From Sinorhizobium garamanticum (GTDB taxonomy: Bacteria > Pseudomonadota > Alphaproteobacteria > Rhizobiales > Rhizobiaceae), in the NCBI RefSeq assembly GCF_029892065.1, contig NZ_CP120373.1:2735001-2799000 (forward strand): 64,000 nt of DNA, read 5' to 3'. Under the pieces are notes generated by a model, which was given only the letters and a program-made list of their open reading frames with translations, was not told the DNA's origin and made no database searches. Shown here piece after piece: positions 1 through 50,310 of this stretch. Each line of letters begins with the position of its first letter. Positions within the stretch are counted from its first letter, which is position 1. The position numbers and the translations under genes are program-made.

Positions 1-383
1 GTGTCGTTGGCTTTGTCGTAGATCCGGGTCACCAGAAGATCTTTCCAGATCAGCGACAGGCCGGAGCGGAAAACCTCTTCCCCTTCCTTCGACAGATCGA
101 TGTCGCCGATGGTGATCGGTCCGGTTTGCCTGCAGGCGATCGAATTGTTGGAGGGGTCCTCGAACCAGTTGCCGTTCTTCAGGCGATCGATCACGCTGCG
201 ATCGAAATAGGTCACGTGGCAGGTGACACCATTGATCTTGGGATCGCGGACGGCGTCGATCTTGATGTCGTTGCCGAGCCAGTCGACGCCGACTTCGCCG
301 ACCGTTTCGGCGCGCGCGGGGAGGGACGCTGCAGCACAGGCGGCAAGCCCGGCAAGGAGCAGGATGCGGATGGGGCGGAACAT
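1..383 (-). CDS. creA: CreA family protein, 3' part beyond window edge
   Basis: Reading the minus strand from an ATG at 383 gives a protein starting MFRPIRILLLAG with a secretion signal ending near ARA-ET, followed by GVTCHVTYFDR and SIACRQTGPI. These match the CreA family: small periplasmic proteins of unknown role with a conserved Gly-Val-Thr-Cys segment and a later Ile-Ala-Cys-Arg-Gln segment. A GGAGAA ribosome-binding site lies just upstream. The reading frame stays open for 127 codons to the left edge, so the C-terminus is missing only because the window ends. The family call rests on these two Cys motifs and the signal peptide. Confidence 0.8.
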   Translation of the reverse strand, partial: MFRPIRILLLAGLAACAAASLPARAETVGEVGVDWLGNDIKIDAVRDPKINGVTCHVTYFDRSVIDRLKNGNWFEDPSNNSIACRQTGPITIGDIDLSKEGEEVFRSGLSLIWKDLLVTRIYDKAND

Positions 384-501
384 GAATATTCTCCGATGGA
401 TTGCAGCGTTGAGATAGGTGGCGGACGCGGCAATGCAAGGCGAGGCGCCGGCCCGTGGTTGCTTTGCCAGGGCACGCAGCGCTGCGTTGACAGTTCGAAT
501 G

Positions 502-1749
502 TCAAGACCGATATCGGCGCGTCGCCTGACGCGGAGCCGCCTTTTCCGGCTCCGGACTATCGGACTGGCGCAACTGCGCCGCTGCCGCCGCAAGCGCACG
601 GGCGCTGGCGTCGACCTGGCGTTGTCTTGCGATCGTGCAGCGATCGCGACCGTCCGCCTTGGAATCGTAAAGCGCCAGATCGGCGCGGATCATCACCTCG
701 GTTATCGTGTCGCCAGGCGCTGCGGTCGCGATGCCGATGCTGACGGTCAGCCGGATGCGTTGATGGACGCGGGTGACCGGCGTTTCACGCACGGTCCGGC
801 AGATTGCCTCGGCGAGCGCGGTCGCCTGCTCCTCGGTGTGATCAGGCAGGATCAGGCCGAATTCCTCGCCGCCGATCCGGCCAAAGGCACCGCGGCCGTC
901 GAGGAAAGCGGACACGGTCTCGGCGAAATGCTTGAGCGCAATGTCGCCGCAGGCGTGGCCGTAATGGTCATTGATCTGCTTGAAATAATCGAGGTCGAGG
1001 AGCAGGAAGGCAAGCGGCCGGTGCCGCGCGAGGCAGTCCGCGAAAATCCGTTCTCCCGCCTCGATCAGCGCCCCGCGCGACAGGGCACCGGTCAATCCGT
1101 CGCGGGCGATGGTCGTCCTTAGGCCAGCGATGATGCGGCTCTGGACGGTTAGGATGACGGCGACGAAGAGGAGTGGCAGAAAAGCTACCTGCATTGCGGC
1201 AACCGCGAACTCGAAGGCAGCAGATGCGGAAAGCCCCGCCGTTTGATGCATGGGGCTCAGCGTATAGACGAGCGCGGCGCAGCCGACTGTTGCCGAAATG
1301 ACAATAGCCATGTGGCACGCACGCCGTGCCTCGGGCCAGCGATCGAGCACGGCGAGGCCGGCGACGAGAAGTAGGGCAGAGGCAAGACCGACCGCAATCA
1401 GCAGCCGGGCGCCGGGGCTGCCGTCACCGTTCAGCGAGGCGACCAGGCCAACGATGCCCGCGGCGAGCGCCAGCGCCGGCAACAGGAAAGCGGGAGCGGA
1501 TAGCGCGAGGAGACCGCGAAACCCCAGAAGAATGAAGAGGTATGCGGACATCAGCGCGGCGTAGCCGAGCACCACGGGAAAAAAGGCCGAGACCATATCC
1601 GCAACCATCATCGAGGCGATTGCGACCGCCGAAAGCGCACAGCCGAGGCAAAAAAACTGCATGCCGGCCGCCGCCGTCCTCCGCAGCGACACAAGGATCG
1701 GCAGCACCATCAAAAGTGCAAAGAACGATATGGCAGGGAGAAAGCTCAT
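502..1749 (-). CDS. Membrane-anchored diguanylate cyclase (GGDEF)
   Basis: 415 aa protein starting MSFLPAISFF. The N-terminal ~240 residues form about seven to eight hydrophobic segments, a membrane sensor of MHYT/7TM-like size, followed by a GGDEF domain opening at DGLTGALSRGALIE. The active-site loop reads RIGGEEFG, a functional GGEEF variant, so synthesis of cyclic di-GMP from two GTP is expected. The usual inhibitory I-site Arg-x-x-Asp just upstream of the loop is not visible, so product inhibition may be weak. The frame stays open upstream, with another ATG at 1884, but I chose the start that begins the first hydrophobic helix. The C-terminal ~40 residues are Ala/Gln-rich and look disordered. 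Confidence 0.88.
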   Translation of the reverse strand: MSFLPAISFFALLMVLPILVSLRRTAAAGMQFFCLGCALSAVAIASMMVADMVSAFFPVVLGYAALMSAYLFILLGFRGLLALSAPAFLLPALALAAGIVGLVASLNGDGSPGARLLIAVGLASALLLVAGLAVLDRWPEARRACHMAIVISATVGCAALVYTLSPMHQTAGLSASAAFEFAVAAMQVAFLPLLFVAVILTVQSRIIAGLRTTIARDGLTGALSRGALIEAGERIFADCLARHRPLAFLLLDLDYFKQINDHYGHACGDIALKHFAETVSAFLDGRGAFGRIGGEEFGLILPDHTEEQATALAEAICRTVRETPVTRVHQRIRLTVSIGIATAAPGDTITEVMIRADLALYDSKADGRDRCTIARQRQVDASARALAAAAAQLRQSDSPEPEKAAPRQATRRYRS

Positions 1750-39025: not shown

Positions 39026-39909
39026 GTCACGAAATCCGTCTTGCGGTAACCCTGGAGGTAGAGAAGGGCCGTCAGGTCGCCGTGGTCGATGCGGATCTTC
39101 GCCTGTTCTGCGACCACGGGTTTCGCATGCAGCGCGACGCCGCTGCCGGCAAGCTGCAGCATGCCGAGGTCGTTGGCGCCATCGCCGACGGCGATCACCT
39201 CGGCGGTCGAAATGCCGAGCCTGCCCGAGATGTCGATGAGCGCGTCGACCTTGGCCTGCTTGCCGAGGATCGGGTGGGCGACCTCGCCGGTCAGCATGCC
39301 GTCCTTCTCGATCAGCACATTGGCGCGGTTCTCGTCAAAGCCGAGTTTCGCCGCAATCGGCCCGGTGAAGACGGTGAAGCCGCCAGAGACGAGGGCGGTA
39401 TAGTGGCCCTTGCCCTTCATGGTCGCGATCAGTTCTCGGCCGCCTGGCGTCAGCGTGATGCGCTTTGCGATCACGTCCTCGATGACCCTGCCGGGCAGAC
39501 CCTTCAAGAGCGCCACGCGTTCGATCAGCGCCGGCTCGAAGGCGATTTCGCCGTTCATGGCGCGGGCGGTGATCGCGGCAACCTTTTCCTTGAGGCCCAC
39601 TTCGGCGGCAAGCTCGTCGATGCACTCCTGGCCGATCATCGTCGAATCCATGTCGGCGATCAGGAACTTCTTGCGGCGGCTCTCGGCATCCTGCACCGCG
39701 ACGTCGATCGGAAAGCCGTTTACCTCTGCGCGCAGCCGCATCTCGGCGGCGCCCGGATCGGTTCCGTCTATAAGCGCGATGTCGCAGGCGACGCCGTCCG
39801 CCAACCAATAGACCCCGGATGCCTTTACGGCGCTCGCCGCCGCTTCCGCCAGCTCAGGCGTCAGAACAGGATTTGACGGATTGGCGATAAGCGTGGCAAC
39901 GAGAGCCAT
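39022..39909 (-). CDS. serB: Phosphoserine phosphatase
   Basis: 295 aa. The haloacid-dehalogenase motif I is FLIADMDSTMIGQECIDELA, the substrate loop KGLPGRVIEDVIAKRITLTPGGREL, motif II SGGFTVFTGPIA and the last motif VGDGANDLGMLQLAGSGVALHAKP. The first ~80 residues are the N-terminal domain typical of alphaproteobacterial SerB. It makes L-serine from phosphoserine. The ATG at 39909–39907 overlaps the divergent miaA ATG within CATG. Confidence 0.96.
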   Translation of the reverse strand: MALVATLIANPSNPVLTPELAEAAASAVKASGVYWLADGVACDIALIDGTDPGAAEMRLRAEVNGFPIDVAVQDAESRRKKFLIADMDSTMIGQECIDELAAEVGLKEKVAAITARAMNGEIAFEPALIERVALLKGLPGRVIEDVIAKRITLTPGGRELIATMKGKGHYTALVSGGFTVFTGPIAAKLGFDENRANVLIEKDGMLTGEVAHPILGKQAKVDALIDISGRLGISTAEVIAVGDGANDLGMLQLAGSGVALHAKPVVAEQAKIRIDHGDLTALLYLQGYRKTDFVT

Positions 39910-40819
39910 GATCAAGAACCTTGAAAGAGACACGGACGCGATCCTGATAACCGGGCCGACCGCCAGCGGCAAGTCCGCGCTTGCGGTGGAACTCGCGCGT
40001 CGGCACGGCGGCGTGGTGATCAACGCCGACAGCATGCAGGTCTACGACACGCTGAAGATCCTGACCGCGCGGCCGGACGAGGCGGAGATGGGCGGGATAG
40101 AGCATTTTCTCTATGGCCATGTGCCGGCCGGACAGGCCTATTCGACCGGCGCTTGGCTGCGCGAGGCGGAGGCGCTGGTTCAGCAGTTGCGCGAAGAGGG
40201 GCGATTGCCCGTCTTCGTCGGCGGCACCGGGCTCTATTTCAAGGCATTGACAGGCGGGCTTTCCGATATGCCGGAGATACCGGCAACGATCCGCGATCCA
40301 CTGCGCGCGCGGCTGAAGGAGGAGGGGGCGGAGGCGCTCCATGCGGAGCTTGCCGCGCGAGACCCGCAAACCGCCATGCAATTGCGGCCGGGCGACGGAC
40401 AGCGGATCGTTCGCGCGCTCGAGGTGATCGAAGCGACCGGCAAGCCGATCCATCTCTTCCAGCAGAGCCGCGGCCCTATGATCATCGATCCCGACAAGGC
40501 ACAGAAAATCGTCGTGCTCCCGGATCGCGCCCTCCTGCACAGCCGCATCGACCGGCGTTTCGAGACCATGCTTGAACGCGGGGCAGTCGACGAGGTGCGG
40601 GCGCTGCTGGCGCTCGACCTCTCGCCCGACATGCCGGTGATGAAGGCGATCGGCGTCCAGCAGATTGCCGCGATGCTAAGAGGCGAGATTGGGGAGGCCG
40701 AGGTGATTGCGACTGGGGCGGCCGCGACGCGGCAATATTCCAAGCGTCAGATGACTTGGTTCCGCAACCAACTCGACGAAAGCTGGCAGCGGATAGAGGG
40801 ACCCGACGCCGTGATTTGA
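39908..40819 (+). CDS. miaA: tRNA dimethylallyltransferase
   Basis: 303 aa. The P-loop LITGPTASGKSALAVELA, the family motif VVINADSMQVYDTLKILTARP, VFVGGTGLYFKALTGGLS, and the C-terminal MKAIGVQQIAAML and ATRQYSKRQMTWFRNQ are all present. It adds a dimethylallyl group to A37 of tRNAs reading UNN codons. The start ATG at 39908 overlaps the serB ATG on the other strand; an in-frame TTG at 39881 is less likely. Each gene's ribosome-binding site must lie in the other's coding sequence. Confidence 0.96.
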   Translation: MIKNLERDTDAILITGPTASGKSALAVELARRHGGVVINADSMQVYDTLKILTARPDEAEMGGIEHFLYGHVPAGQAYSTGAWLREAEALVQQLREEGRLPVFVGGTGLYFKALTGGLSDMPEIPATIRDPLRARLKEEGAEALHAELAARDPQTAMQLRPGDGQRIVRALEVIEATGKPIHLFQQSRGPMIIDPDKAQKIVVLPDRALLHSRIDRRFETMLERGAVDEVRALLALDLSPDMPVMKAIGVQQIAAMLRGEIGEAEVIATGAAATRQYSKRQMTWFRNQLDESWQRIEGPDAVI

Positions 40820-40913
40820 TGCGCGGCGCCAGACCGACGTGGAAATGACTCGCATCCTCCCCGGATTGAGCGCTTAACTGGTGGCCCGGGATTTTTGACG
40901 GAGGAGGCGAACC

Positions 40914-41240
40914 ATGGCGATGTATCTCACGCGCTTCAGTTACACGCCCCAGACGTGGGCACGCATGATCGAAAACCCGGAGGACCGACGCAAGGCCGCC
41001 AGTTCCTACATCGAGTCGGTAGGCGGAAAGCTGCACGGCTTTTGGTATGCCTTCGGCGAGCACGATGGCTGGAATCTTTGGGAGGCACCGGACAACGTGT
41101 CGATGGCATCTGTCGTGCTTGCCATTGGCGCAGGAGGTGCGCTCAGTTCGTGCGAGACCACCGTTCTCCTCAGTGTCGAAGAGACGATGGAAGCCCTTGG
41201 AAGGGCGAAATCGATCCAGTATCGATCGCCGGGAACTTAG
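40914..41240 (+). CDS. GYD domain protein
   Basis: 108 aa ferredoxin-like small protein: MYLTRFSYTPQTWARMIENPEDRR, GGKLHGFWYAFGEHDGWNLWEAPDNVSMASVVLAIGAGGALSS carry the GYD family features (here Glu-His-Asp in place of Gly-Tyr-Asp) seen in stand-alone dimeric proteins of unknown function. GGAGGAGG lies upstream of the ATG. Confidence 0.87.
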   Translation: MAMYLTRFSYTPQTWARMIENPEDRRKAASSYIESVGGKLHGFWYAFGEHDGWNLWEAPDNVSMASVVLAIGAGGALSSCETTVLLSVEETMEALGRAKSIQYRSPGT

Positions 41241-41257
41241 AGCCCTGAAGGGCTCTA
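41238..41257. terminator. Hairpin overlapping the GYD stop codon
   Basis: TAGAGCCC-TGAA-GGGCTCTA gives an 8-bp stem whose first three bases are the TAG stop codon. A G-rich rather than T-rich stretch follows, so intrinsic termination would be weak. Confidence 0.35.
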
Positions 41258-41358
41258 GGGGGCGGCCTGCCGTATCAGGGAATGTTGAGTAATCGCCCAA
41301 GATTGACCTTGACATGGCGGGGGTAAGCGCGTACCCAAAAGATAAACCAAATGGTTAA

Positions 41359-41745
41359 ATGTTTTTGATGCCGCCACGCACAGAAGATAGAGCCGACCAG
41401 CAGCTGGATCAGGTTTTTCATGCGCTGTCCGACAGGACGCGTCGGAGCCTCATGGCGCGGCTGGCCCATGGCGAAGCTTCCGTATCGGAATTGGCGGCAC
41501 CGTTCGACATGTCGCTGCCGGCGGTTTCCAAGCACCTCGTCGTGCTGGAAAAGGCCGGTCTGCTTCGCCGCAGGATAGATGGCCGGGTTCATTATTGTTC
41601 GCTGAGTCCCGAGGCGCTGGAGGATGCTTCGGACTGGATCGCCTTCTATCAGCAGTTCTGGAAACAGAGGCTCAATAGCCTGGCCAAATGGCTCGCCAAA
41701 GAAGAAGGCGCCACCGAACCGAACGACCCCGAGGAGACGACATGA
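41359..41745 (+). CDS. ArsR-family regulator paired with an AHSA1 protein
   Basis: 128 aa winged helix: QVFHALSDRTRRSLMARLAHGEASVSELAAPFDMSLPAVSKHLVVLEKAGLLRRRIDGRVHYC. Unlike the two arsenic regulators in this window, it lacks a Cys cluster at its C-terminus, so it is of the SdpR/PhoR-like non-metal ArsR group that controls adjacent AHSA1/SRPBCC genes. The stop overlaps the next start (ATGA at 41742–41745). A second ATG three codons in is equally possible as start. Confidence 0.9.
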   Translation: MFLMPPRTEDRADQQLDQVFHALSDRTRRSLMARLAHGEASVSELAAPFDMSLPAVSKHLVVLEKAGLLRRRIDGRVHYCSLSPEALEDASDWIAFYQQFWKQRLNSLAKWLAKEEGATEPNDPEETT

Positions 41746-42170
41746 AAGAGCTGAGAATACAAGAAATATTGGAAGCTCCGGCAGCGCGTGTGTTTGCCGC
41801 CTGGTGCGACGTCGACAAGATCCGGGAATGGTTTGCGCCGGGCGAGATGACCGTGCCGGAGGTGGTTGCCGACATCAAGCCAGGCGGACGCTATCGCATC
41901 GTCATGCAGGAGCCGGACGGCAGGCAGCACATCGTCGGCGGCGAATATCGCGAGGTCGTGCCAAACGAGCGTTTGCGCTTCAGTTGGCAGTGGGAGGGCA
42001 GGCCGGACGTCACCGAAGTCAATGTCATCTTGCGAGCACTTGACGACCGGCGCACCGAATTGACGCTGATCCATACGGAATTCGCGACCGCGGAAGCGCG
42101 CGACGAACACGGCAAGGGCTGGGCCGGGTGCCTCGCCAATCTGCGCCGCTATCTGCTTGAGGATTCCTGA
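41742..42170 (+). CDS. SRPBCC/AHSA1-like ligand-binding protein
   Basis: 142 aa helix-grip protein: QEILEAPAARVFAAWCDVDKIREWFAPG, IKPGGRYRIVMQEPDG, VGGEYREVVPNERLRFSWQWEG and the closing GWAGCLANLRRYL are the AHSA1 signature. Such proteins bind a hydrophobic ligand; the function of the ArsR–AHSA1 pair is generally unknown. Translationally coupled to the upstream regulator. Confidence 0.92.
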   Translation: MKELRIQEILEAPAARVFAAWCDVDKIREWFAPGEMTVPEVVADIKPGGRYRIVMQEPDGRQHIVGGEYREVVPNERLRFSWQWEGRPDVTEVNVILRALDDRRTELTLIHTEFATAEARDEHGKGWAGCLANLRRYLLEDS

Positions 42171-42177
42171 AAGCGGG

Positions 42178-42262
42178 GGTCCATAGCGCCTGCGTCCTTC
42201 AGGCGCACCACGATTGCTGTGGCACTTTGAATTGCTGCATTCGCGTTTGTCCTTAGATCAGC
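42178..42262. repeat. Dispersed repeat, orientation reversed
   Basis: CCATAGCGCCTGCGTCCTTCAGGCGCACC, TGCTGTGGCACTTTGAATTGCTGCATTCG and TTTGTCCTTAGATC follow one another; this is the same module order as at 37240 (hairpin, then GCTGT-GCAC-TTGAATT-TGCTGCAT). The space to the next ATG (42328) holds no gene. Confidence 0.6.
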
Positions 42263-42327
42263 TTCGGCGGACGGGACGCGCGGCACTTGCGACGGCCTGA
42301 TAGCCGGTTCACGAAGGGAGAGAAACA

Positions 42328-42978
42328 ATGAAACTCTATTACCACCCGCTTTCCACCTATTCGCAAAAGACGCTGATCGCCTTCCATGAAAAGGGAATCG
42401 CTTTCGAGCCGGAACTGGTGACGCTGATGACGCCGGAAGGCCGGGCGGCGTACACGGCCATCTACCCGCTCTGCAAGATCCCGCTGCTCAAGCCGAGCGA
42501 TGACTGGATGGTCCCGGAATCAAGCATCATCATCGAGTATCTGGAAGACAAGTTCCCCGGAACACCGCGTCTCATCCCGGTTGCCGGCGGTGACACGACG
42601 CGCCAGGTTCGCTTCATGGATCGCATGGCCGATCTTTACCTCAACGATCCAGTACGCGAACTGACACTTCAGAAGGTCGGATTCAGGGCGCCGGACGAGG
42701 AGGCCGCCGCTGTCGCCCGCAACACGATCAGGGTCACCTATGATCATCTCGACAAGCGTCTGTCGGGGCAAGAGTGGCTCTGCGGCGAGTTTTCAATGGC
42801 TGACTGCGCGGCGATTCCGCCATTGTTCTACGCGCAGATCGTCGCACCGTTCGCCGATCGCCCGCATCTGCAACGCTATTGGGAGCGGGCTCAACGAAGG
42901 CCCTCCTATGCGCGCGTGATGCAAGAATTCGTGCCGATCTGGGAGGACATGCAGGCTGGCTCCGCAGCGGCGGAATAG
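42328..42978 (+). CDS. Glutathione S-transferase family protein
   Basis: 216 aa. KLYYHPLSTYSQKTLIAFHEKGIAFEPELV is the thioredoxin-like start with a Ser-Thr-Tyr-Ser active-site neighbourhood; CKIPLLKPSDDWMVPESSIIIEYLEDKF includes the cis-Pro and the Glu-Ser glutathione motif; EWLCGEFSMADCAAIPPLFY is the C-terminal N-capping box. GGGAGAG precedes the ATG. Unrelated in sequence to the GST in the thyA–folA operon. Confidence 0.9.
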   Translation: MKLYYHPLSTYSQKTLIAFHEKGIAFEPELVTLMTPEGRAAYTAIYPLCKIPLLKPSDDWMVPESSIIIEYLEDKFPGTPRLIPVAGGDTTRQVRFMDRMADLYLNDPVRELTLQKVGFRAPDEEAAAVARNTIRVTYDHLDKRLSGQEWLCGEFSMADCAAIPPLFYAQIVAPFADRPHLQRYWERAQRRPSYARVMQEFVPIWEDMQAGSAAAE

Positions 42979-43043
42979 GCACGAGCCACCGAGCCTCAAA
43001 GGTTCGCCTTCAACGCGACGCGGTGGAGGCGGGCAACGGAACC

Positions 43044-43475
43044 TCAGCCAATGCCGTGTTCCTTCAGCACGGCTTCCTCATCGCCGCTGATCCAACCGAA
43101 GATCTTCGGCTCGTCGTTGCGTACCTGGACCAGATAGTGGACCTCGAAATCGATGGTGACGTCCGGGCTGTCCTCAACGTCGTAGGTGGAGCGCCAGTCG
43201 ACCCTGACGAGAAAATGCTGGTTATCGATCGGCGTGATCGTGGTCTTGCGGATCTTCAACTCCTTGGTGCCGATCGCGCGATACCGGGCATAGCCCCTCG
43301 CCATCGAAACCTTCAGGCTGTCGTCGTTCTTGCCGGCAAGCACGCCCGCAGGCGAGGCGGCGATGAATTCCGAGGCGAAAGCGAAGGTCGTCTCGCCGAC
43401 GTCCATTTCGTCGGCAAGCACGCGATTGGCCATGGTTTCGTATCGCGCGAAGAAGCGGCGGAGGATCTCTTCCAT
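43044..43475 (-). CDS. NTF2-like (SnoaL-type) protein
   Basis: 143 aa. The start MEEILRRFFARYETMANR and the mixed strands IRKTTITPIDNQHFLVRVDWRSTY, VTIDFEVHYLVQ and EPKIFGWISGDEEAVLKEHGI are consistent with a cone-shaped NTF2-like fold used by small enzymes and binding proteins. No catalytic residues can be assigned. GGACCGGAA lies before the ATG at 43475; the frame continues upstream without another good start. Confidence 0.7.
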   Translation of the reverse strand: MEEILRRFFARYETMANRVLADEMDVGETTFAFASEFIAASPAGVLAGKNDDSLKVSMARGYARYRAIGTKELKIRKTTITPIDNQHFLVRVDWRSTYDVEDSPDVTIDFEVHYLVQVRNDEPKIFGWISGDEEAVLKEHGIG

Positions 43476-43565
43476 GATTCCGGTCCTGAATTTTTTCGAA
43501 CAGTTTGAATGAAAACGCACGCCCGTGCCGCGCGGTTCCTATGACGTGCCGGCAGTGCCAGCCGT

Positions 43566-43913
43566 TCAGCCAATCGCCGCCTGCTGGTGCTGCACAAGTT
43601 TCCAGCCCACCCCGGTATCGCAATAGGTCGAGGTGCAGTAAGCGGCGTAGGGCTTCCTATCCGCGCGATGACCTTCGGCGCGATACGCGAGAACCAAGCA
43701 GCCATGTGCCGGGCGGCCGATTGTTCTATCGGTCATGACCACGCGATCCCATCGCGGCGCGCCCTCCAGGCTGTCGATGATCGAGGGTCCCTGCATGAGG
43801 CCTACCGGAGCAGGAAACGCCATGATGCATTGCTTATCGAGCAGCTTCCGATAAGTGTCCGGGCCTTCGAGCCAAAGCCTTTGTTCCGTCTCCCAAGCGT
43901 GAGCGTCGTCCAT
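43566..43913 (-). CDS. DUF4440/NTF2-like protein
   Basis: 115 aa: AWETEQRLWLEGPDTYRKLLDKQCIMAFPAPVGLMQGPSIIDSLEGAPRWDRVVMTD then AHGCLVLAYRAEGHRADRKPYAAYCTSTYC and GWKLVQHQQA. This order of helix, hydrophobic pocket and strands is that of the DUF4440 group. GGAGGAG is 5 bp before the ATG at 43913, deciding the start. Probably co-transcribed with the VOC gene that precedes it on the minus strand? That gene actually lies downstream at 43985 only by coordinate; transcription runs VOC first, then this gene after 71 bp. Confidence 0.78.
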   Translation of the reverse strand: MDDAHAWETEQRLWLEGPDTYRKLLDKQCIMAFPAPVGLMQGPSIIDSLEGAPRWDRVVMTDRTIGRPAHGCLVLAYRAEGHRADRKPYAAYCTSTYCDTGVGWKLVQHQQAAIG

Positions 43914-43984
43914 GGGCTCCTCCGTTGGTTCCTGCGGCCTCCACCCCAACGCTCGAGCAGGCGCAAGGATCCAAGCGCCGCCGC

Positions 43985-44380
43985 CTATCGCAGGTTCAAC
44001 TGCCAGGAGACGCCGTATCGGTCGCAGACCCAGGCGAATTGTCGGCTGAAGCCGTAGTTGGCGAGCGGCATCAGGACCGCGCCACCCTCCGCAAGCGCCG
44101 AGGCAAGGTGTTCGAGTTCGCTTTCGCTGTCGCAGTCGACGAACAGCGAGAAGGCGGGTCTGAAGTCGAATTCATGTTTCACCGGACTGTCGATGCAGAG
44201 GATAGTTTCGCCGGCGATCGACAGTTGCGCCTGCATGACGGAGCCCTCGGCGCCAGCCTCGCCCGGCCCATAGCGATCGATGCTGATGATCTTCGCGCCG
44301 GAGAACAGCGACAGATAGAGGTTCATCGCCGCTTCGGCTTCGCCCTGGAACATCAGAAAGGGTCTGACGCGATTGACCAT
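43985..44380 (-). CDS. VOC-family protein, PhnB-like
   Basis: 131 aa. RVRPFLMFQGEAEAAMNLYLSLFSGAKIISIDRYGPGE, VMQAQLSIAGETILCID and the closing YGFSRQFAWVCDRYGVSWQLNL are the signature of the PhnB/3-demethylubiquinone-methyltransferase-like branch of the vicinal oxygen chelate superfamily. The function of these single-domain members is unknown. It starts 20 bp after the MBL gene stop on the same strand, so run-through from the peptidase–MBL unit is possible. Confidence 0.88.
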   Translation of the reverse strand: MVNRVRPFLMFQGEAEAAMNLYLSLFSGAKIISIDRYGPGEAGAEGSVMQAQLSIAGETILCIDSPVKHEFDFRPAFSLFVDCDSESELEHLASALAEGGAVLMPLANYGFSRQFAWVCDRYGVSWQLNLR

Positions 44381-44400
44381 GAAGGGTCTCCCACCACTGC

Positions 44401-45948
44401 CTACGCCGGGCTGTCGGCGACGGTGTATTCAAAGAAGAGGTCGGTCTCGATCCACTTGAATTTTTGCCACTCGTCTGCGCTGATGTCATCGGGTTTTGCA
44501 ACATGGTCGACATCGCTGCGGAAGACGCGACCGCGGGCCTTTTGCATGAGCCTCTCCTCGATGAAGCGGAGCGGGTGCTCCCACGGCCTGTCCTTGTGCG
44601 CCGCCCAGGGTGTATTGGCCGGGATCATCGCCACGAATTCGTCCTGGACGGCGTTGCTTGCCAGCCAGGAAAGGTTGGCATAGTCCGCCCCCACGCTGCC
44701 GTCGAGCGTGGCGTTGTGGCTGCCGTGATGACCGACCTTGTAAAGGACCGTGCGGCTGAGAAGATCACGGGCCGTGATGAGCCTGCCATCGATGGTCCAT
44801 CTGAGCGGCGCCCAGGAGATCCAGTTTCCGCGCTGGGCGTCGCCGGTGAAGAGCAGCACCTTGCCGGTTCCGGGGAGTTCGATCGCGATGACGAGGCTCG
44901 TGTTGTTCACCTCGTCATTCAGCCTCAAGGCCAGCGTTTCCGCGCTCTCAAGCCAGTCGTTGTCGATCTGCCGCCACGCCTCGGCGGAACCCCGTTTGCC
45001 CTTGACGCCATAGTGGTCGGCAAAAAAGGCCTTCAGAAATGCGTCATGGCCCCGTTCGACGTCCTTGCGCGAAATGCCGAAGCGCGGGTCGAAGCTGCGG
45101 CTGGCGTTTTCCGGGCCGCCGTCGAGCGTGGCGGCGAGCAGGCTCAACGTCGCCCCGTCGGTCGACAGCCTGAATTCCTCCTCGCCCTGCGGCTCCAGCG
45201 AAAGCAGCAGCTCGACATCGCGCGGCGGTCCGAGCGCGTAGACTCGCACGCCCTCGACGCCCGGCAGTCGATAGGGATCGTGGTCGGGCCGCAGGAAAAC
45301 AGGATCGCCGGCGATACGTCCGCGCAGATATTTGATGGCGCGCTTGTTGGTGATCCCTTCGATGGCAAGCGCGCCCTGCCTTCGAGCAGAGAGTGCCGGG
45401 TGGCGCCGCCTGATCTCTTTCAGCCGTTCGCGAAGCTCGTCGGCGGCATCTTCTCCCGTCTCGAAGGAGAGGAGATCGCGCAGCATCGTGCGGTTCGGCG
45501 AATGGACGCCGAAGCCCGCACGCTCGAGCCGCTCGTCGGCGCCCATCAGCGCGAGCAGCGTGTCGTGGAAGCGCTCGCGCAGGCTGTTGGCAAACGGATC
45601 CTCGCCGTCCTCAGTCCATGCCAGCCAGAGCGCGCCGATCTCGATCGGGTCGAAGCATGGTTTTCTCGTCGCGGGGTCCTTCGCCGCAAAGCCGTTGACA
45701 TGATCCATGTGCTCATGGGTCACCAGCACGACGTCTAATCGGTTGCCGGTCGCTTCGGCGATGTCGGCGATCACCTTGTCGATCGTCTGCTCGGGTTTGA
45801 TCTCGGAGTTCGTCCACAGGCCGCAGTCGATCAGCACGTAGCAAGCGCTGCCGTCCGTCTTGCGCATCGCCAGAAGAAAACAATCGCCGTGGCCCTGTCG
45901 GTACATGCGTACCGTGACGCCGGACTCGGGTGCCTGCATCCTGGGCAT
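44401..45948 (-). CDS. ComEC-like metallo-beta-lactamase-fold hydrolase paired with a peptidase
   Basis: 515 aa soluble protein. VRMYRQGHGDCFLLAMRK and YVLIDCG open an MBL fold; VLVTHEHMDHVNG (residues 77–85) is the His-x-His-x-Asp-His metal site, LLFTGDAQRGNW gives the bridging Asp, and LYKVGHHGSHNAT the final His, as in the ComEC/Rec2-type branch. A ~200-residue insertion after the first metal motif carries charged helices. No signal peptide or TM helix is present. It starts 10 bp after the peptidase stop with AGGAGG, so the two are one operon. ComEC-like MBL domains cleave nucleic acids or small phosphodiesters; the substrate is unknown. Confidence 0.85.
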   Translation of the reverse strand: MPRMQAPESGVTVRMYRQGHGDCFLLAMRKTDGSACYVLIDCGLWTNSEIKPEQTIDKVIADIAEATGNRLDVVLVTHEHMDHVNGFAAKDPATRKPCFDPIEIGALWLAWTEDGEDPFANSLRERFHDTLLALMGADERLERAGFGVHSPNRTMLRDLLSFETGEDAADELRERLKEIRRRHPALSARRQGALAIEGITNKRAIKYLRGRIAGDPVFLRPDHDPYRLPGVEGVRVYALGPPRDVELLLSLEPQGEEEFRLSTDGATLSLLAATLDGGPENASRSFDPRFGISRKDVERGHDAFLKAFFADHYGVKGKRGSAEAWRQIDNDWLESAETLALRLNDEVNNTSLVIAIELPGTGKVLLFTGDAQRGNWISWAPLRWTIDGRLITARDLLSRTVLYKVGHHGSHNATLDGSVGADYANLSWLASNAVQDEFVAMIPANTPWAAHKDRPWEHPLRFIEERLMQKARGRVFRSDVDHVAKPDDISADEWQKFKWIETDLFFEYTVADSPA

Positions 45949-45958
45949 AGGCTCCCTC

Positions 45959-48094
45959 CTAGCTTCCCTGCCGGTGAAGATGGGCGAAAATCTCCGGTCG
46001 AACGGGCTTGCTCGCGCCGGCGGTGAAGGCATTTTCCCGGCTCCGCGCCTGCCTGGTCAGGTATGCGCGCATTCTTTCGAGCTCCGTGTCGTCGCAAATG
46101 TCGCCGGGTGTGCGGATGACCCTTCGGATCTCGAAGGTCTCCCCATCGATGAGCAGGGTGCAGCCACGGCGAAAATAGAAATCGAAGGGTCCCCTTGGCG
46201 GCTTGCCCTTGTCCGCCGCCTCCTGCTTCTTGGGATCGAGGTAACCGTGGCGGGTTTGCGTCAGTTCGACGACATATTCGCGCTCGATCTGGTCGCGGTT
46301 GCCGCGGCGTGCGGCCATGCGAACGCTGTGCACTTCGATGGCCGGACCGGTAACGATCTTGCTGCGCCGGACTGTCGCCGGTGCGTCGGCATCCGTCCGG
46401 ATGCGGATGATATCGCGAAGCGGCGCATTCTTGGCCTCGGTGATGAGCCCCCAGAACAACCGCCCGTAGAGGTCGCGCGCGAGCCATTCGACCTTCCGGT
46501 CGGCCTCGAGGCCGAGCTCAAGGAGATTGCGTCCGAGGATTTCCCGGAGCGACGATCTCGACCTCTTGGCAGTCTGCGGGAGGCGGTTGCCCATCACCTT
46601 GTTCAACTCGTCGTAGATTTCCTGTGCGGTGCGGTCCAGGCCGTCCAGGAATTTCTGGCCCTCGCTGTCGTGAAAGTCGCTGCGGGTCTTGAGTTCGTCG
46701 ATCATTTCAAGCGGGCGCGAAAGCAGATAGGCAATATCACCTTTGAGATCGCTCAGGCTGGGAAAGGCGGCTTTGTAATCGGCGGCTGCTTCGCCCATCG
46801 CCGGCCAGAGCAGCGTCTGGACGGAGACGATCGGCATGTCGCGCGGAACGACGCCCCAGGCGAGGAATGCCTCCATCACCGCGACGCGATAATTGTGCTC
46901 GTCCTCGGGGTAGAGATCGCGGTCGGCGGTCATGATCGCGCGGAGGTAGTCGCCGAAGGTGACGTCGACGGGCGGGCAGTAGTCGAGCGCGCGGATGCAC
47001 ATCTGCAGGATGTGCCGGGCGGATTTCGACGCTTCCTTCGCCAGCCGGTTGACAAGGTCGGGATGCAGCGCCCCTGCCGGCAGAATGCCCGTACCGCTTG
47101 ACGCGATGCGCAGCAGGTCGGATATGCGCGCGCGATAGATCGATAGAAACGCGCGGAACACGGCGGCCACCAGAATGGCGCCGCGGTCATGCACTTCCTC
47201 CGTCTCGCGCAGAAGCTTCGGATTGGGCTCGTGCGCCCGCCAGACGCCGTCCTTCCAGCCGCCGAGCGCGTCGCGCAGCGCCGTCCCGCGGCCGAGAACC
47301 TGGCCGAATTCCTGGGCGAGCTGGCCGAGGAGGTTCTGGCTTTCAAGGTCGCCGCGCGTGCGGGCGATCTGGTCCTTCAATACGTCCGGATAGGAGAAAT
47401 GCTGGAAGATCGCGACGATGTCCGCGAAAGCCTCGTGCAGCGCGAGCACGTCCGGATTGGTCGCCTCGCTGAAGCGGGGATGCATGCCGTCGAGCAGCGC
47501 GTGCGATGTTTCATGGGCGATGATGTCGTGGGAAAGACACGTGAATATGATGGTGCCGGCAGGCGCTGCCGATTGACCTTCGCCGGCCGCAAAATAGCCG
47601 AAGAGCAAGGCCTTTTTCTCGGGGCTGTAATAGGCATTGGCGTCACGCAGCGCATGCGGATAGATGCGCAGGCGCTGGACATATTGCGGATTGATCCACT
47701 GGCCTTTCTCGTCGCGGTCGCGCGGTGCCCAGAGCGCGACACGGCCGAGCGCGCTTTCGAAATTGACGATGGTGTTCATCGCCACGGCATAGGTCATTTG
47801 CTGGTGGAATTGCGGGTTCCATTCCGCAGGTCTGAGGCCATTGTCGGCAAGCAGGCTCGGATCGTGCAGGTTGACGGGCCTATAGATGAGATCGAGCGAC
47901 GGATCGAAGTCGATGACCTCGACATATTCGCCAACGGGACCGACGAATGGGACGCCGGGATCGAGCTTGTCCATCTCCCAGGGGATCGAAACGATCACTT
48001 CGTTGAGCGGCAGCGTTTCGTGTCGCCGCCCCATGCTTGGGTCGAAGGCGAAGATGCGGAGCTTGCGCGGAGGCATGGTCGACAAAACGGACAT
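45959..48094 (-). CDS. Intracellular gluzincin-type zinc metallopeptidase, novel context
   Basis: 711 aa. The zinc motif is SHDIIAHETSHALLDG (His194, Glu195, His198), followed 22 residues later by ALHEAFADIVAIF, giving the third ligand Glu221 and Asp225, the gluzincin (thermolysin-like) layout. The N-terminal ~110 residues and the C-terminal ~300 residues match nothing I recognise. There is no signal peptide or membrane segment, unlike secreted M4 proteases, so it should act in the cytosol. GGAGGAG precedes the ATG. It is the first gene of a unit with the MBL-fold protein. Confidence 0.82.
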   Translation of the reverse strand: MSVLSTMPPRKLRIFAFDPSMGRRHETLPLNEVIVSIPWEMDKLDPGVPFVGPVGEYVEVIDFDPSLDLIYRPVNLHDPSLLADNGLRPAEWNPQFHQQMTYAVAMNTIVNFESALGRVALWAPRDRDEKGQWINPQYVQRLRIYPHALRDANAYYSPEKKALLFGYFAAGEGQSAAPAGTIIFTCLSHDIIAHETSHALLDGMHPRFSEATNPDVLALHEAFADIVAIFQHFSYPDVLKDQIARTRGDLESQNLLGQLAQEFGQVLGRGTALRDALGGWKDGVWRAHEPNPKLLRETEEVHDRGAILVAAVFRAFLSIYRARISDLLRIASSGTGILPAGALHPDLVNRLAKEASKSARHILQMCIRALDYCPPVDVTFGDYLRAIMTADRDLYPEDEHNYRVAVMEAFLAWGVVPRDMPIVSVQTLLWPAMGEAAADYKAAFPSLSDLKGDIAYLLSRPLEMIDELKTRSDFHDSEGQKFLDGLDRTAQEIYDELNKVMGNRLPQTAKRSRSSLREILGRNLLELGLEADRKVEWLARDLYGRLFWGLITEAKNAPLRDIIRIRTDADAPATVRRSKIVTGPAIEVHSVRMAARRGNRDQIEREYVVELTQTRHGYLDPKKQEAADKGKPPRGPFDFYFRRGCTLLIDGETFEIRRVIRTPGDICDDTELERMRAYLTRQARSRENAFTAGASKPVRPEIFAHLHRQGS

Positions 48095-48273
48095 CTGCTC
48101 CTCCCGGGATTGCCGCCGCTATCTGTTGTCCAGTCGATGCATTCCTTGAAGTTCGATCGCCTTGATATTGCAACAGGAAGGATTCGTCCGCGTGACAGGA
48201 ATGTCAACTCACGATTGCAAGCGCGAAGCGCGATTTGCCGAAGAGGAGTCGATCACGGCGCGGACGTGCGACC

Positions 48274-50310
48274 CTATTTGCGGATGAGGCTGCCGAGCGG
48301 GCGTTTGAGCAGGCTTTCGCGCAGCGACGAGCCCTCCCGGCGGGGCTCGGTTGTCGGCTGCGCGAGGCGCGGATCCGGGGCATGGGGTCTCGGACTGCCG
48401 TCCCGTTCAGCGTGACCGGAGAGGATCTGCTCGCGGATCTGGTTGAAGCGCTCGAGCTGCGGGTTGACCGGCTCCGGGCGCGGAAGCATGTCCGGCCGGT
48501 AAGGCTCGAACGCCGGCTCCTGCCAGGCGTCGGCCTCGGATGGCAGGTCGGCGCCGTGGGCGACTTCCTCAATGGGCTCATCGTCCTCAAAGGTCGACGC
48601 CTTGGTGCTTTGCGCTGCCAGATAGCTCTGCTGGAAGTTTGAAATGTCCGGCCCGGAGATCGCCCGCATCCGGCTCACGATCGAACGCAGGTCGACGCTC
48701 GGCGGAGCGTCCTCGTCCGCCTTGTCGGTGATGCCGTGGGCACGCGGAAGGTGCCGGTCCTCGACGCGGGTGAAGCGCATGCGCATCGGCACAGCGACCG
48801 CCTCACCGAAGGCGATGGCCTCGCCGTTGCCGATCGAGGAGATGAAGCTGGTGGTGGAGATCGACGAATTCGAGATCGCCGAGCGGATGATCTCCTGGTC
48901 GCGATCGTTGGCAAGACGCATGGCGAAGACGGTGGAGCATTGCGACAGGATCGTGGGGTCGAGTTCACCCGGGCGCTGCGTGATGATGCCGAGCGAAACG
49001 CCGTATTTGCGGCCTTCCTTGGCGATGCGCGCGATCGCCTGACGGGTCGGCAGGAAGCCGAGCGAGGCATCGGCCGGTACGTAGCGGTGCGCCTCTTCGC
49101 AGACAACCAGCATGTGGATGCCGCCGTCGCTCCAGAGCCCGATTTCGAAGGCCATGCGGCAGAGCACCGAGGCGACCGAATTGACGACTTCCGAAGGGAT
49201 GCCTGCGAGTTCGAAAGTGGCGATCGGCCTGCCTTCGCCGGGGATGCGGAAGATCTTGGCGATCGTGTCCTGGATCGTGTCGGTGATCGTGTTCGACGAG
49301 AACATGAAGTGGTAGCGCGGATCGTTGATCGCGGAGACGATCTTGATCTTGAGCGAGCGCAGGTGTGGTTTGTCCGTGCGGCCCTCCAGCCGGCCGATGC
49401 GCTCGTCGATCATCGCCAGAAGATCGGCGATGCGATAGGGCACCGGCGTATCGGCGGTGATCGAACTCTTTTCATTCTGCCGGCGCACCAGTCCGGACTC
49501 GCCGCCCTTGAACGCCTTTTTCGCGTCCGGAATGACATCGCGCAGGATGTCGAGTTCTTCCGGCACGGGCGGGCGGCCGCGGAAAATGACTTCAGCGAAT
49601 TCTTCCAGCCGGAAGAGCCAAAAGGGGAGGTCGAGCGTATCCGTGTCGATGACGACCGCATGCTCCGGGAAGGCGGCGGCGAACTCGTTGTGCGGGTCGA
49701 GGATCAGCACACGCAGCTTCGGGTCGGCGGCAATCGCCTTGTGGAGAAGCAGCGTGACGGCGGTCGACTTGCCGACGCCCGTCGTTCCGACAATGGCAAA
49801 GTGCTTGGCGAGCATCGACGGCACATGGATCGTGGCGTCGAGGCTCTCGTCCTGGGTCAGCTTACCGATGACGCAACTGTCCGTCTGGGTCGACTCGTAG
49901 ATGCGGGCAAGGTCGGTAGCGCGGATGCGATGGGCGATCGCGCCGAGGTAGGGATATTGGCTGATGCCGGTCGAGAACGATTCGCGACCGTCCGGGTCGG
50001 TGTGGACCTCGCCCATCAGCTCGACCTCGATGCGGAAGGTGTTGTTTGTCTGTTCGCCCCATTCGCTGGCGACAGTCTGCATGGCGTAGACGAGCGCCAC
50101 GACGCGGTTGGCGCCGACGGAAATGGAAATCAGACGACCGACCGACCAGAGCTCGGTCAGCGAGGTTTCGCCACTTTCGGCAATCGCGGCGATTGTTGCG
50201 CGCGAGCCCGTGCAGCCAACGACACGACCGAGGAAACGATTACCGGGTTTAAGGGTGTCACGGCGATCCTCTCCGGCACCGACCGAGGAATGAAGATCAC
50301 TATCGAGCAA
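48274..50310 (-). CDS. HerA-like/DUF87 ATPase
   Basis: 678 aa. An N-terminal HAS-barrel-like domain (GRVVGCTGSRATIAA) leads to Walker A AIVGTTGVGKSTAV (residues ~173–186), LILDPHNEF, Walker B MLVVCEEAHRYVP, and the HerA arginine region GIITQRPGELDPTILSQC. HerA-type ATPases are ring-shaped DNA pumps that often partner NurA nucleases or act in defence; no nurA is visible. The last ~140 residues are Pro/Glu-rich and disordered. The start is TTG with GAGAGG upstream. It lies 179 bp upstream of the peptidase gene on the same strand. Similar stand-alone genes are widespread in rhizobia, so the link to the pair is uncertain. Confidence 0.88.
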   Translation of the reverse strand: MLDSDLHSSVGAGEDRRDTLKPGNRFLGRVVGCTGSRATIAAIAESGETSLTELWSVGRLISISVGANRVVALVYAMQTVASEWGEQTNNTFRIEVELMGEVHTDPDGRESFSTGISQYPYLGAIAHRIRATDLARIYESTQTDSCVIGKLTQDESLDATIHVPSMLAKHFAIVGTTGVGKSTAVTLLLHKAIAADPKLRVLILDPHNEFAAAFPEHAVVIDTDTLDLPFWLFRLEEFAEVIFRGRPPVPEELDILRDVIPDAKKAFKGGESGLVRRQNEKSSITADTPVPYRIADLLAMIDERIGRLEGRTDKPHLRSLKIKIVSAINDPRYHFMFSSNTITDTIQDTIAKIFRIPGEGRPIATFELAGIPSEVVNSVASVLCRMAFEIGLWSDGGIHMLVVCEEAHRYVPADASLGFLPTRQAIARIAKEGRKYGVSLGIITQRPGELDPTILSQCSTVFAMRLANDRDQEIIRSAISNSSISTTSFISSIGNGEAIAFGEAVAVPMRMRFTRVEDRHLPRAHGITDKADEDAPPSVDLRSIVSRMRAISGPDISNFQQSYLAAQSTKASTFEDDEPIEEVAHGADLPSEADAWQEPAFEPYRPDMLPRPEPVNPQLERFNQIREQILSGHAERDGSPRPHAPDPRLAQPTTEPRREGSSLRESLLKRPLGSLIRK

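Follow-up and report, generated by a model that had tools for sequence, protein, structure and literature searches.

A cytosolic thermolysin-fold metallopeptidase encoded with a ComEC-type metallo-β-lactamase-fold protein as a candidate two-gene conflict module

Defence through proteolytic activation of a metallo-β-lactamase (MBL) nuclease was demonstrated recently and, going by the main text of Tuck et al. (2025, PMC12799240), has to date been shown with trypsin-like proteases and caspases. The protease-gated MBL pro-nuclease pairs described there belong to Hachiman (HamM) and AVAST (Avs1a), and Lamassu and DRT contain related ones. The trypsin-like partner cuts the inserted loops of the pro-nucleases HamM and Avs1a at conserved isoleucines, the caspase complex CanAB converts CanC to a nuclease, and mutations in the cut sites abolish defence; further nuclease clades go with other protease families, of which the main text names only the caspase (PMC12799240). 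Here we analyse a stretch of 64,000 nucleotides from Sinorhizobium garamanticum (NZ_CP120373.1, positions 2,735,001 to 2,799,000; hereafter the window), in which the gene for a metallopeptidase of thermolysin-like fold is followed immediately by the gene for an MBL-fold protein of ComEC type. This pair recurs, nearly always together, across about eight phyla, and probably constitutes a dedicated conflict module. Its features, in window coordinates, are as follows.

45959..48094, minus strand: thermolysin-like-fold metallopeptidase, 711 amino acids (aa), no leader (open reading frame (ORF) list, predicted structure)
residues ~8-427, minus strand: peptidase catalytic domain, the fold beginning at about residue 8-10 (predicted structure)
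47501..47515, minus strand: HETSH (residues 194-198), presumed zinc ligands and catalytic Glu
47420..47437, minus strand: HEAFAD (residues 220-225), with E221 as presumed third zinc ligand
47189..47191, minus strand: H302 of an invariant H-x-R-G motif
residues ~430-560, minus strand: helical region of the peptidase
residues ~585-685, minus strand: C-terminal alpha/beta part of the peptidase
45949..45958, minus strand: 10 bp spacer from the peptidase stop to the MBL start, holding the Shine-Dalgarno-like GAGGGAG
44401..45948, minus strand: MBL-fold hydrolase, 515 aa (ORF list), with a predicted structure nearest the ComEC MBL domain (9ic4)
45700..45717, minus strand: HEHMDH (residues 78-83), presumed metal ligands
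44929..45168, minus strand: MBL loop (residues ~261-340), predicted with low confidence and variable in length, candidate gate
45091..45096, minus strand: S285-F286 in this loop, near-invariant, candidate cleavage or docking site
44716..44733, minus strand: GHHGSH (residues 406-411), with H407, H408 and S410 invariant in 79 sequences

A preliminary description, made from the sequence alone, had reported the two ORFs with their HETSH, HEAFAD, HEHMDH and GHHGSH motifs, 10 bp apart, and had called the first a gluzincin without signal peptide and the second ComEC-like. Positions and motifs were re-checked in the sequence, the MBL assignment was borne out by the predicted structure, and the peptidase combines HExxH and the downstream Glu motif with a predicted M36/M4 (thermolysin-like) fold of clan MA(E). 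H302 presumably corresponds to the catalytic His found in M4 peptidases. These motifs are not due to chance, because they are conserved across relatives: HExxH and H-x-R-G occur at all 80 related peptidase loci, HE-x-F-x-D at 79, and HxHxDH in 78 of 78 parsed MBL ORFs, with H78, H80, D82 and H83 invariant in 79 sequences. At E ≤ 1 the window peptidase matched no Pfam and no NCBIfam family, and the precomputed label PF01447 was carried by only 6 of 120 relatives among the matches listed; we therefore file it as a fold-level relative, not as a member of the M4 or M36 family. Its relatives are numerous, at least 7997 being scored in the databases.

The thermolysin fold is normally secreted. In the window peptidase, no leader-like stretch was found (highest 15-residue hydropathy within the first 45 residues, 0.72), nor an N-terminal propeptide of M4/M36 type, and with the start codon closest to the domain none of the 80 relatives exceeded a hydropathy of 1.6. 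As that choice of start could trim a leader, the test was also run from the start of each open frame, which left 78 of the 80 below 1.6 and two marginal (L040, 1.63, inside a 706-residue extension; L041, 1.67). Since leader-like stretches are lacking, a secreted enzyme pair is unlikely. A PepSY-like C-terminal part, considered from CTLLIDxET-type motifs, found no backing, the matches that may lie there being weak and insignificant (NTF2-type, Foldseek E ~1) in whole-model structure searches that barely probe this region.

For the MBL, the frame is also open upstream, giving 543 aa from 46032 and an overlap with the peptidase, but the ATG at 45948 appears to be the start, as it is better placed behind the ribosome-binding site. 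Judged from this spacing, translational coupling of the two genes is likely. The protein matches Pfam Lactamase_B (2.1e-8) and has some 250 residues beyond the ComEC MBL domain. Its loop motif is P-F in most relatives, with a near-invariant F286. Among PADLOC models it matches LmuA (E 6.1e-14) and also RTasMBL, Avs1a and PDC-M48B, with the best stretches within the first 109 residues; PDC-M48 is presumably a serial number and not the peptidase family M48.

To what extent the two genes travel together was seen in a scan with one genome per species, which gave 372 peptidase relatives; the analysis used the best-scoring 80, each with as much as 10 kb of flanking sequence on either side, so that the sample does not reach the most distant relatives. 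An MBL gene of the same family lies downstream on the same strand at 79 of these loci, and at the remaining one (L046) the contig ends 74 bp past the peptidase. Among the record titles of the 80 loci are Alpha- and Betaproteobacteria, Deltaproteobacteria/Desulfobulbaceae, Bacteroidota, Acidobacteriota, Chloroflexota, Planctomycetota, Verrucomicrobiota and Gemmatimonadota, so that co-occurrence in distant taxa, a check named in the preliminary description, is confirmed. Plasmids gave 64 matching records, and in all 14 chosen regions that were opened, including those of Deinococcus and a planctomycete, the MBL adjoins the peptidase. Within the family of the window (151 genomes) it does so at eight of nine peptidase loci, the exception being the weakest peptidase match (G397, E 4e-15); two MBL loci there have no peptidase, one at a contig end (G443) and one with an IS110-type transposase ORF alongside (G380). 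Peptidase and MBL trees are correlated (r 0.87 for 75 pairs, a value that includes a contribution from shared species history; maximum of 500 permutations, 0.21). The pairing is near-obligate.

Several copies differ in layout. In L030 (9980-13657) peptidase and MBL share one open frame, either a natural fusion or a frame error of metagenome assembly. Two plasmid copies are broken, with both genes split over several frames in L205 (7941-11795) and the MBL in two frames in L108 (13634-15180), reflecting decay or sequencing error. Two diverged pairs lie within about 20 kb of each other in L053, L059, L069 and L078, and also in L045 and L057, which are on one contig.

At the Sinorhizobium site the pair lies between miaA and a conserved neighbour:

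48274..50310, minus strand: HerA-like ATPase (PADLOC HerA models), outside the system, ending 179 bp upstream of the peptidase start

Leaving out the interval of the window itself and one on a short contig, 31 HerA-miaA intervals of the genus were compared; both genes are present in 13 and absent from 18, and no interval has just one of them, so that with the window the pair is present in 14 of 32. The pair thus acts as a unit at a fixed chromosomal site, and this joint presence and absence, together with adjacency and correlated trees, upholds the dedicated two-gene unit that had been proposed at the outset. The suggestion that HerA might take part did not survive: all 33 genomes of the genus carry HerA regardless of the pair, and it was rejected as a third component. 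The interval (window 39881-50310; L151-L181) is otherwise variable, with small genes and a GST/AHSA1/ArsR-like set gained or lost, and in L161 NmrA-type-looking and LysR-type-looking ORFs stand between HerA and the pair (all named by eye).

The anatomy of the pair resembles that of gated MBL pro-nucleases in the ComEC-type MBL fold with metal ligands and in the adjacent protease gene. As in the HamM and Avs1a pairs, protease and MBL adjoin and have similar trees, and the extra residues of the MBL include a presumably flexible loop, a candidate gate, that bears a conserved hydrophobic site. Unlike in those pairs, the protease, which occurs either by itself or in fusion with a subtilase, is a metallopeptidase of M36/M4 fold and by its zinc-metallopeptidase motifs and fold is neither trypsin-like nor a caspase; the protease gene comes first here, the nuclease gene there; and the MBL has 515 aa, as against 42 kDa for HamM, with no sensor enzyme fused. 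With Canu (CanABC) it shares a stand-alone protease gene upstream of the MBL gene and variable further genes, although a zinc peptidase replaces the caspase; a CanB-like partner was not recognised at the pair loci, where no specific search for CanB was made. Thermolysin (M4) and fungalysin (M36) have the same fold, HExxH with downstream Glu and the invariant His after it, whereas the window protein has no leader, no N-terminal propeptide region and no Pfam match, and carries about 280 more C-terminal residues. The MBL likewise differs from the nuclease domain of ComEC/Rec2 in being a separate protein, without membrane part and with about 250 inserted residues. Filing the pair under M4, M36, Hachiman, AVAST or Canu was rejected, because features of those groups are lacking. 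It may represent a further protease class in the known plan of a protease activating a gated MBL, and the supplement of PMC12799240 may already include this branch, because the main text ties other nuclease clades to further protease families. No publication naming an M4/M36-type peptidase paired with an MBL was found among the titles and opening lines of abstracts listed by literature searches, a prior mention being possible above all in that supplement.

Given the anatomy shared with the systems in the main text of PMC12799240, gated activation of a nuclease by a cytosolic peptidase would be the most economical mechanism. The thermolysin-fold peptidase would be held quiet in the cytosol until a trigger arrives; it would then cut its ComEC-type MBL partner at the flexible loop with the near-invariant hydrophobic site, and removal of the gate would free the MBL nuclease, which would destroy DNA and leave the infected cell arrested or killed. 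At some loci this core would gain an additional effector, usually a patatin-type lipase, and at some a subtilase fused to the peptidase could act upstream of it. That the pair is a dedicated conflict module of some kind we regard as probable, whereas the whole chain, in which a two-gene and probably anti-phage module works by peptidase-triggered release of a gated MBL nuclease, is put forward tentatively, at slightly less than an even chance; cleavage, DNase activity, the trigger and phage defence are the parts of it that we infer. If it is true, the principle has been invented, or re-equipped, with an unrelated protease class in a widespread unnamed branch, which would explain the cytosolic home of a normally secreted fold. 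Gating also yields a precise, mutable prediction, F286 in the MBL loop.

The genomic company of some copies agrees with a conflict role. Gene clustering over 89 loci grouped 20 proteins from 19 loci together, and 18 of these lie on the same strand at position -1 (11) or +2 (7); both members scanned by Pfam were Patatin, as was the gene beside the pair in L150. Twenty neighbours picked by hand for a Pfam scan included two Patatin and two second MBL proteins, and a single example of each of Tle1-like lipase, PLD-type, SLATT_2 (below cut-off), YLATT, SIR2-AAA, subtilase, ResIII helicase and DUF2779/RNase H; beside other copies there are S1/P1 nucleases and a PGAP1/LCAT-type protein. In a batch contrast, Patatin matches numbered 10 among 128 neighbour genes (20 pseudomonadotan loci) and at most one among 134 control genes, which came from 19 arbitrary regions of genomes of that phylum, and PADLOC at 1e-20 gave 45 families near the pair and 13 in the controls (one member each, with PDC-S06, PDC-S20 and PycC among them). 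This contrast is rough, because its loci were listed by hand once the clustering was done, when half were already known to contain patatin-cluster genes, and because most controls were long chromosomal contigs. PtuA (3), PtuB (3) and mad3 (4 members) are among the PADLOC matches listed near the pair, possibly overlapping. PADLOC on five picked loci found Hachiman HamAB about 1-3 kb away in L105 and L148, where HamAB are separate neighbours, and a pAgo with a TIR-PNTD protein about 4.5 kb off in L146; L106 has a DUF1837-helicase pair by annotation only. A pair of 306 and 690 aa genes near L142 and L144, HamAB-like by size, had no PADLOC match and was discarded.

Several points weigh against a gated anti-phage nuclease. 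Four of the 20 picked neighbours were ordinary or uninformative (symporter, GMC oxidoreductase, glucuronyl esterase, DUF4421), four had no family, and two of the five picked loci gave no PADLOC defence match; the conflict role raised in the preliminary description is favoured by effector- and defence-type neighbours of some copies. A sensor domain was not recognised. Likeness in sequence to known gated nucleases is weak and mostly N-terminal: NCBIfam Avs1a scores the window MBL at 33 bits against a cut-off of 420, and its hhalign alignment with Avs1a/LmuA-type MBL spans just 93 columns. The window MBL carries S285 where most relatives have P, the shuffles behind the tree correlation ignore relatedness, and partners are sometimes missing, as in shorter peptidase relatives without an MBL neighbour (L143, 6136-7611; L150, 4864-6030, a 389 aa ORF) and in L142, where an MBL without peptidase has a transposase ORF alongside. 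The literature searches found no cleavage, nuclease or phage experiment on the peptidase-MBL family.

The peptidase also occurs in larger proteins. Six of eight long peptidase ORFs have an N-terminal subtilase fused, with D/H/S motifs present (the second pair of L059, 2329-6018, minus strand; L098, L102, L149, L201 and L203), and the motif is absent in the other two, L040 and L048. In these subtilase (S8)-metallopeptidase fusions the MBL gene comes next, giving two proteases and one MBL in a row. By anchor pattern, 79 of 105 listed database proteins longer than 1000 aa (among P0013-P0120) hold two peptidase copies; HExxH is kept in the second copy of all 79 and in the first copy of 49, the first having mostly lost the catalytic Glu, often as HQxTH. 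From these motifs they seem to be a pseudo-peptidase fused to an active peptidase. No such tandem protein (about 1200 aa) was found among 398 genomes of the phylum of the window. The gated-nuclease scheme could be extended to a proteolytic immune cascade of bacteria that stands alone and differs from known ones, leading from trigger to thermolysin-fold zymogen to gated nuclease and, in part of the loci, to a swappable lipase effector, but we consider this doubtful; equally doubtful is that the trigger enters in some species through the fused subtilase, whose triad motifs are intact, or the tandem pseudo-peptidase, with a fan-out like that of complement or caspases.

The alternative that survives best, though we think it unlikely, is that the pair controls a third effector as its regulatory core; this effector (patatin, Tle1-like, PLD or SLATT-type) would be activated by the peptidase or restrained by the MBL, the MBL then being a phosphodiesterase or immunity-type control and not the killer. 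The patatin cluster would fit such an arrangement, but gene calls at many loci contain no such gene, and the pair should therefore work without a third effector. The window is one of these loci: the large ORFs between 40.5 and 52 kb comprise the two members of the pair, HerA and one that by eye resembles acetolactate synthase, the ORFs downstream of the pair (131, 127 and 158 aa) are by size alone no lipase or sensor ATPase, and the ORF list shows no HamB helicase, Avs STAND ATPase or LmuB-type large sensor gene with the pair.

A housekeeping or quality-control function, in which protease and nuclease dismantle nucleoprotein such as DNA-protein crosslinks or incoming conjugative DNA, would account for a protein-cleaving enzyme and one of nuclease-type fold being nearly always co-encoded, and for their frequency on plasmids typed conjugative (35 of the 64 matching records). 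The patchy distribution speaks against it, with a peptidase relative in 4 of the 398 phylum genomes at E 1e-60 and in 8 of the 151 family genomes at E 1e-10 and with 18 of 31 sister genomes lacking the pair at its site, and the lipase partners are left unexplained; we judge it rather improbable. Less probable still is a toxin-delivery cassette, with the pair as processing enzymes for secreted antibacterial effectors (lipases, amidases, nucleases) of the kind exported by type VI secretion systems, as Tle1-like lipase, GH25, amidase and S1/P1 nuclease genes at some loci might suggest, since 78 of 80 peptidases have no leader-like stretch from the open-frame start, the other two being marginal, and no type VI secretion gene is named in 12 annotated plasmid regions, where many genes are hypothetical. 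Neighbours without functional link, or a system that includes the HerA gene 179 bp away with its PADLOC match, are practically refuted by adjacency over about eight phyla and by the presence of HerA in every genome of the genus regardless of the pair.

Ubiquitin-like machinery lies near the pair in L033 (7483-9804), L202 (14944-17172) and L107 (12372-13355), recognised by E1-E2/JAB models or, by annotation, as Mov34/MPN/PAD-1; in L033 an E1-E2/JAB-type protein is ahead of the pair. In L145 (4337-6602) a patatin-like protein with a GGGxRxG start (by eye) stands beside an MBL of LmuA/Avs1a/RTasMBL type, with no M4/M36 peptidase within 6.7 kb up to the contig end. L145 gave the one clear relative in a scan with the Avs1a model, which otherwise gave weak partial-model matches. 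Finally, a phage-labelled contig (MT836994.1, 3090-4091) encodes an MBL relative with 28% identity, the sole match among 50,697 records.

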